Below are positions 4,829 through 8,616 of a DNA stretch of 34,232 nt, piece after piece; the stretch's first letter is position 1, and each line of letters starts with the position of its first letter. The stretch is from Candidatus Wolframiiraptor allenii. GTDB taxonomy: Archaea; Thermoproteota; Nitrososphaeria_A; Caldarchaeales; Wolframiiraptoraceae. The notes below the pieces were generated by a model. That model made no database searches. It saw only the letters and a program-made list of their open reading frames with translations, and was not told the origin of the DNA. Both the position numbers and the translations under genes were made by a program. The DNA is taken from the NCBI GenBank assembly GCA_023539495.1, contig JAKCEV010000006.1, positions 1 through 34,232 on the forward strand. Direction: 5' to 3'.

Positions 4829-6316
4829 CTAGACGAATTTCCTGAGCTTTATCGAGAGATCTCCGAGGCTTATCAGGGCCATGGCCCCGACTGTCGGCTC
4901 GAGACCCACGCTCCTCTGATAGCTCGTTTGCTCCTGCCATGTGCCTGAGTTTATGATCCTCACGCCGCGATATGATCCAGCATATGCGACGTGGACGTGG
5001 CCCGTGTGGAAGACATGTGGGATCCGATCTATCACGAGCATGTCCTCGGGCGTGGGGATTATGGGCGTGGTCTCGCCATAGATCGGGCAGAGGTGCCTGC
5101 ACCTGAGAACGAGCTTCAAAATTTCCCCAAGATCCCTCTCCAAGCTGCTATGAGAGAACCCGGGGGCCTGCTGTATCACATCATCCAGCCCCTGGCCATG
5201 ATAGATTAGAAAAATCCTCCCGGAGATCCTGATCCAAGCAGGGTTCCCGACGAAGATGAAGCTTCTCCCGGATTTCTCGAGTATCGCGCGATATTTCTCG
5301 GGGAGCGGGGGCTGTGGGAGGGCTCGTTGGACCGGGTCATGGTTTCCCGGGCCAATTATTATCTTCACGCGCTCCGGGATCTCGGACAGCAGCCCCGCAA
5401 GCTTCTTAAACTGCTCCTCGACCGAGAATATCTCGAGCTCCTTATGCTGGTTCGGGTATACGCCCGCCCCATCCACCACGTCCCCGGCGATTATAAGGAG
5501 CTTGACATTCCTGGCCTCGGGATCATCCTCGCGATTAATCCAGTCTAGGAAGTTCTCAAAGAGATCCTCCCTGAAGTGCTTGCTTCCGACATGTATGTCC
5601 GAAATCATGCAGATGAACGCTTCATGAGCAGTCTTTTCTAAGCGCTCCGCGGCCAGATCCGGGAGTATAAGTTCCCTCGCGATGAGCGCTTCGCCGCTTT
5701 TCACAACCCTCGCCCCGATCACCATATCGGGTAGCAGCTGCTCCGGGCTATCTCCCGAGACTCCATCCTTCGGCGCGATTATCCTATGTTCCCCGCTCGG
5801 GTCGTCCACCCTCAGGATCCACGCCTTCTCGGACTCCTTCTTCTCGATGAGCATCACGATTATGTTTGCCTCCTGTGACTCCCGGAGTCTCATGGCATCT
5901 CTCAGCGAGATCACCCCCCTAAGCCTCTCCCGCAGAAGCCCTGAAAGCTTCTCATACCTGCTCGAGAAATACCTCTGAAACTCCTCGAATGTTCCTTGGA
6001 TCCTCCACTCCACTAGAAAACGCTCATCAACTTCTATCACGATATCCTCATGCTCTTCCTCGGCCTCCTCCATCTCAACCTCCTCAGCCGTAGCCGGCGG
6101 CTCTTCAGCCACCTTCACGTCCCCAACCAGCTCAACCAAGAGGCTTTCATCGATGATCGTCGTCCCGCTTTTCTCCAGCCTGCGCATCGCCTCCTCCAGT
6201 ATCTCGAGGGGTGCTTCAGCCTGCTCGAGGATCTCTAGAGCTCCCTTAGTCACCGTATAGCCCCGGGACGTGGCCTTCTCGACTATCTTCCTTGCTAGGG
6301 CCTCGCGCCTCAACAT
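4829..6316 (-). CDS. polB: DNA polymerase D (Pol II) small subunit DP1, exonuclease-like phosphoesterase
   Basis: 495 aa; OB-fold region plus calcineurin-like phosphoesterase motifs CMISDIHVGSKHF, IAGDVVDGAGVYPNQ, IIGPGNHDPVQRALPQPPLPEKY, FHTGHVHVA. Confidence 0.93.
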   Translation of the reverse strand: MLRREALARKIVEKATSRGYTVTKGALEILEQAEAPLEILEEAMRRLEKSGTTIIDESLLVELVGDVKVAEEPPATAEEVEMEEAEEEHEDIVIEVDERFLVEWRIQGTFEEFQRYFSSRYEKLSGLLRERLRGVISLRDAMRLRESQEANIIVMLIEKKESEKAWILRVDDPSGEHRIIAPKDGVSGDSPEQLLPDMVIGARVVKSGEALIARELILPDLAAERLEKTAHEAFICMISDIHVGSKHFREDLFENFLDWINREDDPEARNVKLLIIAGDVVDGAGVYPNQHKELEIFSVEEQFKKLAGLLSEIPERVKIIIGPGNHDPVQRALPQPPLPEKYRAILEKSGRSFIFVGNPAWIRISGRIFLIYHGQGLDDVIQQAPGFSHSSLERDLGEILKLVLRCRHLCPIYGETTPIIPTPEDMLVIDRIPHVFHTGHVHVAYAGSYRGVRIINSGTWQEQTSYQRSVGLEPTVGAMALISLGDLSIKLRKFV

Positions 6317-6337: not shown

Positions 6338-7627
6338 CTATCTCGCGGCTGATGGCTTGTAGTCGAGCAGGGGTGAGAGAAGCTCATCTCCGCGTATTGC
6401 CTCCTCAATCTCGTCGGGCGGCGTGAGGAGTATTATTCTCCGCGTCCTTCCATGTCTGCCCATGTTCACAAGCTCGCTCTTCACGACGCCGAGCATGTCG
6501 AGCTCTGATATAAGGCTGCTAACCCGCCTATCTGTCAGGGGTTCTATACCAATCTGCCTGCAGACCTCCTTATATGTCTGATAAATCATGCCCGAGACCG
6601 GGCTCAATACATTACCCCTCGTGAGGAGGAGCATGCTGACGAGGATGAGCTTGCTGTGGAGCGGGAGGGTGGATATGGCCTCGAATATCCTGCCGCGCTC
6701 TATGATGTTCTGGGCGATCCTCACATGCCTCTCCTCAACCACCTCATCCCCATTCCTCTCGGCAACCTCTGCGGCAACCCTGAGCAGGTCTATGGCCCTC
6801 CTCGCATCACCATGCTCGGATGCGGCGAGCGCCGCGCACAAGTTTATGATCTCCTGGGGTACTGCTCCCTCTCTGAAGGCCAGCCTCGCCCTCTCGCTCA
6901 AGATATCAACGAGCTCTATGGCCGTGTATGGGTGGAAGACAAGCTCCTCCTCGCTGAGGCTGCTGAGAACCCTTGGATCCAAATAGTCCTTGAAGTGGAG
7001 ATCGTTAGAGGTCCCGATCATAGTGAGGCCGCATCCCTCCATGCCCTCATTTATCCGTGAAAGCTCGTAGAGGAGGTTATCGCCATAGCTTTTTACAAGC
7101 GCATCTATCTCATCGAAGCAGGCCACAAGTAGAACCCCCTTCTCCTTCAAGCCCCTCCTGAGCCTCGCGAAGACCTCGGCCTTTGCAAGACCCGTGAAGG
7201 GCACCTTAACGCCTATGCTCTCGCAGAGCTCCGCCAGCACCCGATACTCCGTCCCAGCTATCCTGCAATTGACATATGCGAAGGCAACGGGTAGATCCTC
7301 CCCAGCGACAACCTCCTGAAACCTCTTGAACACGTAGCGTACTACCGCGGTCTTACCTGTACCCGTCTTACCATAGATGAAGACATTACTGGGCTTTGAG
7401 AGACTTAGGGCGGGGGATAATATCTCGCCAAGCCGCCTGATATGCTCATCCCTATGCGGGAGCTTCTCCGGAACATAATCAGATCTCATCACCTCGCGGT
7501 TCACAAATATCCTCGGCCTCTGAAGAGCCTTCTTCAAAACCTCCTCTAGGGGATCCCCTCCACCCCTAGATTTCCTATGGAGGAGCCCCTCACCTGATTG
7601 AGATCCTATTGATGACTTTGTATTCAA
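6338..7627 (-). CDS. cdc6: Orc1/Cdc6 replication initiator (AAA+ ATPase)
   Basis: 429 aa; Walker A VFIYGKTGTGKTAVVRYV, Walker B LLVACFDEIDAL, C-terminal winged helix. Confidence 0.94.
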   Translation of the reverse strand: MNTKSSIGSQSGEGLLHRKSRGGGDPLEEVLKKALQRPRIFVNREVMRSDYVPEKLPHRDEHIRRLGEILSPALSLSKPSNVFIYGKTGTGKTAVVRYVFKRFQEVVAGEDLPVAFAYVNCRIAGTEYRVLAELCESIGVKVPFTGLAKAEVFARLRRGLKEKGVLLVACFDEIDALVKSYGDNLLYELSRINEGMEGCGLTMIGTSNDLHFKDYLDPRVLSSLSEEELVFHPYTAIELVDILSERARLAFREGAVPQEIINLCAALAASEHGDARRAIDLLRVAAEVAERNGDEVVEERHVRIAQNIIERGRIFEAISTLPLHSKLILVSMLLLTRGNVLSPVSGMIYQTYKEVCRQIGIEPLTDRRVSSLISELDMLGVVKSELVNMGRHGRTRRIILLTPPDEIEEAIRGDELLSPLLDYKPSAAR

Positions 7628-7747
7628 AGTAGCCCCTTAATGTAATGGGGGTAAAAGCTAATCAATCGAATACTTAAGAAATATTGAGTATCTTCTCGAG
7701 AATTATTCAAAAAGGCTTTAGAACTGTTTTCTGGGGGCGATATCTTT

Positions 7748-7774
7748 GTTCCAGTGGAAATATGGGGGTGTGGG
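7748..7774 (+). promoter_or_regulatory. ORB-like element 1: GTTCCAGTGGAAATATGGGGGTGTGGG
   Basis: Dyad TTCCAGTGGAA followed by a G-string, the archaeal ORB architecture. Confidence 0.75.
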
Positions 7775-7890
7775 TCTTTCGGCAGGACCAGTAACGCTGC
7801 ATTGGTTTTCACATAGTGAAGAAGCCTGTGAAGTGGCTGGGTGGAAAGCCTTTTTCAAGGGCCTTTTTGGCGGAACAAGGCAGGATATGC

Positions 7891-7920
7891 TTCTCCACTG
7901 GAAATTGAAGGGGCCCCACG
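7891..7920 (+). promoter_or_regulatory. ORB-like element 2: TTCTCCACTGGAAATTGAAGGGGCCCCACG
   Basis: Half-dyad TCCACTGGAAA followed by GGGG; converges with element 3 on a shared GGGGCCCC. Confidence 0.6.
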
Positions 7921-7939
7921 CTTTCCGCTGGAAAGCCTT
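7912..7939 (-). promoter_or_regulatory. ORB-like element 3 (minus-strand reading CTTTCCAGCGGAAAGCGTGGGG)
   Basis: Dyad TTTCCAGCGGAAA followed by GCGTGGGG, matching element 1 in inverted orientation. Confidence 0.6.
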
Positions 7940-8241
7940 CATGTAAATGCCTTTCCTCTATTCTGGCTCTATACAGATGTCTTGAAAGGGAGCTGGCGCA
8001 GGATTTAGCATTCTTTCCTCGGTCAGCGCAGCATATTTTCCTCATTTATTGAACATATTTCTTGAGGAATAATCCAAGATTAATCACTTCTTTGAAAATG
8101 ACTAGATTATGTCTGGAAGCTTCCACCATAACAGGCAGGTGAACATATTTTCTTGAGAATACTTCATGATCATAATGGTTATTTCAGGGGCATTCTAGGG
8201 TATTATCTAAGATGCGTGGCCTACGTGAAATGCGAAGTTTT

Positions 8242-8616
8242 TCACTCCTGCTCTGTGAAGCGTTCCCTTAGATTTGATGCAAGCTCGAGGGCTTTTAAGA
8301 GGCCTATCAGGGTCTTTGCAAGCTCTTTTACCTCTTTTGGATCCGCCGCCCGCTTTAGCGCGATATTCACCTCCTCGATCTTCGTGGTTAGGGTCTTCAC
8401 GAGCTCATTCAACGTAATGCCCGTGAAGGCCTCCTCAATCTCCTCCTCGCTCGAGACCCTGATCACCCTCTTATTGCATTTCAGGCACCAGATCTGGCCC
8501 TTTATCTCGAAAAGGGGGCTGCTGCAGACCGGGCAAACATCTGCAAGCATTTTAGCCCCGCTCCTAAGGGCATCGGCCATTCTCCGCATATACTCGGCCT
8601 CATCCGACGACATCAA
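8242..8616 (-). CDS. Sjogren's syndrome/scleroderma autoantigen 1 (p27)-like zinc-ribbon protein
   Basis: 124 aa; RRMADALRSGAKMLADVCPVCSSPLFEIKGQIWCLKC. Confidence 0.8.
   Translation of the reverse strand: MMSSDEAEYMRRMADALRSGAKMLADVCPVCSSPLFEIKGQIWCLKCNKRVIRVSSEEEIEEAFTGITLNELVKTLTTKIEEVNIALKRAADPKEVKELAKTLIGLLKALELASNLRERFTEQE

Follow-up and report, generated by a model that had tools for sequence, protein, structure and literature searches.

Judged by its sequences, the locus described here is a canonical Orc1-type origin of a Wolframiiraptor-like hot-spring archaeon (Caldarchaeales), and it is very probably where chromosome replication starts; origin activity and Orc1 binding are what we infer from it. 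The evidence taken jointly makes it highly probable that this is an Orc1-dependent, and probably the only, ORB-type origin, in which two of three conserved ORBs (ORB-B and ORB-C) border a loading zone and ORB-C has a dual use, as a DNA element and as part of the orc1 coding sequence. A single Orc1-type origin is proposed because the ORB pattern is essentially confined to orc1, equals the published motif, and is absent upstream of the second cdc6 gene.

Genomic context of the probable origin

The window, i.e. the whole stretch of 34,232 nucleotides that was analysed, is contig C22 of a 1.32-Mb MAG of 95 contigs. In minus-strand order it carries genes for a radical-SAM/B12 protein and an Auto_anti-p27 zinc-ribbon protein, a 614-bp gap (7628-8241), orc1/cdc6 and the gene for the small subunit of PolD (DP1). 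An earlier note on this DNA had given exactly these limits for the non-coding gap between the p27/zinc-ribbon ORF and orc1; the ORFs that it regarded as artifacts (7718-7942, 7746-7946, and 7809-8045) do exist, and their FQWK-type peptides are, as it proposed, translated ORBs. The orc1 product is of the Orc1-1 type (profile match to TIGR02928, 413 bits), with S. solfataricus Cdc6-1 as its best solved relative (2qby_A, E 2e-116), and is 96% identical to Orc1 of Candidatus Wolframiiraptor gerlachensis, which places the host in the Caldarchaeales (Aigarchaeota). The features of the locus are as follows.

4829-6316, minus strand: PolD small subunit (DP1) gene, directly downstream of orc1
6338-7627, minus strand: orc1/cdc6 initiator gene, with a TTG start and AAA+ and winged-helix domains
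7562-7582, minus strand: ORB-C, CTCCATAGGAAATCTAGGGGT, orc1 codons 16-22, translated LHRKSRG
7628-7638, minus strand: block AAGGGGCTACT, immediately before the orc1 start and almost unchanged across 8 genus members
7657-7707, no strand: candidate duplex-unwinding region between ORB-B and ORB-C, the least stable and most AT-rich conserved interval
7749-7769, plus strand: ORB-B, proximal, G-string away from orc1, TTCCAGTGGAAATATGGGGGT
7808-7820, no strand: palindrome TTCACATAGTGAA between ORB-A and ORB-B
7894-7913, plus strand: TCCACTGGAAATTGAAGGGG, a second dyad that faces ORB-A and is fully ORB-like at this locus, with 1 mismatch to the pattern
7913-7933, minus strand: ORB-A, distal, G-string toward orc1, TTCCAGCGGAAAGCGTGGGGC
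8242-8616, minus strand: Auto_anti-p27 zinc-ribbon gene, upstream border of the origin

The zinc-ribbon gene adjoins the origin in most class loci examined. The Pyrococcus-like arrangement, with both PolD genes beside cdc6, is not found here: DP1 is adjacent and DP2 sits on a separate contig, C54. The origin-orc1-DP1 order, which the earlier note took to be kept in the lineage without an adjacent DP2, is found in most, though not all, of the class: DP1 lies far from orc1 in the Caldarchaeum-like genome G024 (family f4) and was not found beside orc1 in the remaining f4 loci or in two f1 genomes. At the f4 loci (L053-L137 of G024 among them) orc1 keeps its ORB cluster even though DP1 is not adjacent. 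A second, divergent cdc6 paralogue (G000:C89:35568-36671) was rejected as a site of origin because its upstream gap is short and holds neither ORBs nor a conserved repeat. Several f4 genomes encode a third Cdc6, which in G029 is broken into pieces with stop codons. A search of the origin region for structured RNA returned zero Rfam matches.

ORB motifs are concentrated at orc1

The three motifs reported in the earlier note are all present in the sequence: TTCCAGTGGAAATATGGGGGTGTGGG at 7749-7774 (+), the TCCACTGGAAATTGAAGGGG dyad at 7894-7913 (+), and, on the minus strand, TTTCCAGCGGAAAGCGTGGGG, which spans 7914-7934, a few bases off the 7915-7937 first given. The GGGGCCCC shared by the two converging dyads was located at 7910-7917. 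Pattern TTCCANNGGAAA has 3 exact matches in 1.32 Mb, two of them at this locus, and the dyad-plus-G-string pattern TCCANNGGAAANNNNGGGG has exactly 3 genome-wide, confined to 370 bp of this locus; the reversed-pattern control gave 0 in each case. One of the three TCCANNGGAAANNNNGGGG matches (7563-7581, minus strand) lies inside the orc1 frame and had previously been missed. The TTCCAnnGGAAA dyad with a G-string, by which archaeal Orc1-type origins are recognized, is present as three exact matches (control 0), and the motif at this locus fits the published common ORB motif, TCCA[CG]T[TG]GAAA[TC][GA]AAGGGGT (PMC4164010).

Comparison with relatives, a check set beforehand, revealed that the ORB cluster is kept at orc1 across the class genomes. 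Pattern TCCANNNGAAANNNNGGGGT gave 85 matches in 44 class genomes (one control match), 84 of which fall at the orc1 locus, a count that includes two beside an orc1 fragment in G001; the sole match elsewhere is G005:C3:7047-7066. The G001 matches form a second ORB pair (G001:C73:3001-3490) in the same MAG, next to a fragment matching orc1 residues 13-60, and represent either a duplicated origin or a contaminating contig.

A conserved three-ORB layout

Relative to orc1, the ORBs are oriented A(+), B(-), C(+) with a spacing of ~175 bp, and this layout recurs with similar spacings in most of 41 orthologous loci, where ORB-A usually lies at ~-300, ORB-B at ~-130, and ORB-C at ~+50 (centre spacings mostly 160-185 bp for A-B and 165-185 bp for B-C). 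ORB-B matches the ORB consensus at 15/15 positions. Nearly every class genome has an ORB-A at a corresponding position and on this strand; it is missing from G006, whose contig ends at that point, and family f3 carries its distal ORB on the other strand. The B-C spacing is 134-139 bp in most of family f2, and a few further loci, such as those of G028 and G040, also depart from the usual spacings. A helical-phase rule for ORB spacing was dropped, as A-B distances of ~160, 173, 178, and 184 bp fit no single phase.

The conserved set comprises A, B, and C, and not the converging 7894/7914 pair that had been proposed as the core: in the sister species the 7894 dyad is a degenerate, mini-ORB-like ATTTCC-GTG-A. 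The wider proposal of an Orc1-type oriC beside orc1/cdc6 is supported, except in its extent, as the origin passes 7628 into orc1, where the third conserved ORB lies. Palindrome TTCACATAGTGAA, which is present in 7/8 genus members and three genomes of other genera, is possibly a site for another origin protein. Block AAGGGGCTACT stays almost invariant in the genus while the orc1 start codon itself shifts, and is possibly a translation or promoter element. TTCAC/GTGAA was considered as a general centre motif and rejected, being mainly confined to the genus.

ORB-C lies within the orc1 coding sequence

In known examples ORBs are habitually all intergenic, which origin predictors assume although it is not a strict criterion; here, ORB-C (codons CTC CAT AGG AAA TCT AGG GGT) is coding, in the same orc1 frame, in 41/41 orthologues. 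Across genomes it matches a mean of 13.0/15 consensus positions, every other orc1 position averaging ≤9.1, and the match falls to 11-12/15 in a subset of family f4 as well as in some genomes of f1g5 and f2. The seventh codon (Gly) is GGT in 41/41, GGT usage for Gly in the same genes being 24%; with one genome taken per genus, GGT is fixed in 13/13 genera (log10P -8.7, somewhat overstated, as genera were treated as independent). The third codon encodes 8 amino acids (R, E, Q, S, W, G, L, K) and its last base is G in 41/41 (log10P -8.0, somewhat overstated for the same reason). Together with the in-frame start codon found upstream of ORB-C in 41/41 genomes, the fixed GGT and fixed third-codon G show that ORB-C, though translated, is also held as DNA, i.e. 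that it is under DNA-level constraint.

Two other accounts of this element have to be weighed. ORB-C might simply follow from conservation of an N-terminal peptide, F/L-Q/H-x-K-x-x-G, without selection on the DNA, and the parts of family f4 that keep the peptide pattern while the dyad weakens would fit this account; the fixed synonymous choice at the glycine, and a third codon whose amino acid varies while its final base does not, make it very unlikely. Conversely, orc1 might start downstream of ORB-C, in which case ORB-C would be untranslated and the true intergenic origin would end later. The TTG at codon 31 of this orc1 is a possible start, and in the outgroup G211 the gene starts near the DPL-equivalent residues with the ORB-C equivalent ~145 bp upstream. 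However, besides the upstream start, the frame is open through ORB-C in 41/41 genomes, the conserved DPL motif follows ORB-C at in-frame distances, and ATG/GTG/TTG codons are absent from ORB-C and onward to codon 45 in 18 genomes of 8 genera; ORB-C is therefore translated there, unless a rarer start is used. We give this second account as little credence as the first, and return to ORB-C as an element both translated and conserved as DNA.

Duplex stability and the proposed loading zone

The least stable 50 bp of the region at this locus is at ~7657-7707, and stability averaged over 41 genomes has its minimum at -100 to -40, again in the B-C interval, with z reaching 1.71. A candidate AT-rich unwinding element between ORBs of opposite polarity is thereby seen in the sequence, with B(-) and C(+) flanking the least stable conserved interval. 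Only the B/C pair diverges as in a Sulfolobus-type oriC1; A and B converge. The low-stability stretch may also hold, or simply be, the orc1 promoter.

Orc1 monomers most likely bind A, B, and C. ORB-B and ORB-C, which point outward, would define a loading zone for two MCM hexamers, by analogy with Sulfolobus oriC1, where two MCM hexamers are loaded between opposing ORBs. Melting would take place at ~7657-7707, and ORB-A may be an accessory or handover site. As B and C lie on either side of the orc1 promoter and 5' end, Orc1 bound there would also occupy the promoter and the start of its own gene, and would probably repress it.

The reading of the earlier note differs from this in its core, made up of the intergenic pair 7894/7914 plus 7749, and in its site of melting, at 8030-8200, which leaves the ORB in orc1 peripheral. 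The AT-rich stretch does exist; its zone at ~-480 is the second least stable across the class (z 1.04), is partly conserved, and at this locus contains two 31-nt copies of TGAACATATTTCTTGAGGAATA... (8050-8080 and 8140-8170, 90 bp apart). Nevertheless, it is not the least stable DNA of the region, either here or on average, it falls outside every ORB, the repeats are not recognizable in the genus alignment (sister species), and the 7894 dyad is not kept as a full ORB in relatives. This version is unlikely, and the unwinding region appears better placed between B and C, because of ORB polarity and conserved duplex stability. Another alternative would make the ORBs operators only, through which Orc1 represses orc1 (and DP1), with replication starting elsewhere or dispersed. 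The likely promoter and the start codon of orc1 do lie between ORB-B and ORB-C, and a skew inflection at the locus is not proven in relatives. GC, RY, keto, AT, and G-word skews (21 tests, compared with shuffled blocks) were computed for the complete genome of the order-level relative G024, the 575-kb contig G028:C2, and 220 kb of G036:C3. There was no significant signal at the locus in G024 (GC skew, p=0.29) or in G028:C2; in both, skew ranges mostly did not differ from those of shuffled blocks, with no notable step at the ORBs. In G036:C3 the keto skew has an extremum within 2 kb of the ORBs, and keto and GGGT skews peak 2-4 kb or less from them, with a sign opposite to the usual one and as part of the 21 tests; this extremum was not counted in favour of the origin. 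Against an operator-only role, three sites spread over ~350 bp exceed the needs of an operator, no second ORB cluster was found in the genome itself or in 44 relatives, and in both Pyrococcus and Sulfolobus an ORB cluster adjoining orc1 has been mapped as an origin (PMC4010727). We therefore consider that role highly improbable and the origin with its B/C loading zone the preferred reading.

Comparison with outgroups and known origins

In other families of the phylum the ORBs lie upstream of orc1, with a similar layout where both orientations were found. G211 has ORBs at -491, -284, and -78, counted from the aligned start and oriented + - +; its ORB-C equivalent precedes the ATG, and its Orc1 is without the N-terminal extension. 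With the outgroup ORBs upstream, an ORB-C that overlaps the gene seems, within the set of genomes compared, to be peculiar to this class; among the outgroups, sequence was read directly at one locus. In three genomes of family f25 (G162, G183, and G097) tens of kb separate the ORB clusters from the Orc1-1 gene, and converging (+,-) pairs occur among them, in contrast to the layout of family f18. The latter family is probably Sulfolobus-like: its Orc1 shares 67-76% identity with S. solfataricus Orc1-1, and its ORBs read (-) then (+), G-strings outward, with 100-130 bp between them in most members (compared with ~175 bp for the diverging pair here) and one or two further ORBs. This diverging layout agrees with the ORB3-DUE-ORB2 region of Sulfolobus oriC1, where ORB2 and ORB3 flank an AT-rich DUE within ~130 bp and are both essential (PMC12141716).

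Like the locus described here, Sulfolobus oriC1 has three same-class ORBs beside orc1-1, two of them diverging around an AT-rich element (PMC12141716). However, the Sulfolobus ORBs stand at least ~80 bp ahead of the aligned Orc1 start, whereas here one is intragenic, and farther upstream there is an additional ORB-A, oriented opposite to B. In Pyrococcus, as here, ORBs are directly upstream of cdc6 with eukaryotic-type replication genes near (PMC4010727), but here only DP1 follows orc1, DP2 is on another contig, and the second cdc6 is elsewhere. The haloarchaeal oriC1-cdc6A and oriC2-cdc6E similarly have inverted G-string ORBs adjoining cdc6 (PMC3936714, PMC3528665). In haloarchaea the additional ORBs through which oriC2 is down-regulated occupy intergenic DNA downstream of cdc6E, in contrast to the extra ORB inside the coding start here.

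Implications

Ori-Finder 2 and the haloarchaeal survey scan intergenic DNA only (PMC4164010, PMC3528665), and would therefore miss ORB-C, which by its polarity should mark one side of the loading zone; if the present reading is true, intergenic-only predictors would systematically truncate such origins. No description of an ORB inside an initiator coding sequence was found in the open-access literature, most subscription papers being outside the search, and no mapped or detailed Caldarchaeales (Aigarchaeota) origin was found in the literature searched. The locus provides a precise, testable candidate origin for the Caldarchaeales, conserved over four families, with the unusual feature of a predicted initiator binding site under DNA-level selection within the initiator's coding sequence. 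Synonymous recoding of ORB-C could cleanly part its DNA role from its protein role, and cultivation of W. gerlachensis has been reported (PMC9246946). We lean, by a modest degree, toward the view that throughout the class one of the two ORBs flanking the loading region sits in the initiator's own reading frame; if this is true, a single dual-use stretch of DNA would link the initiator's protein sequence, its expression, and the licensing of the origin.
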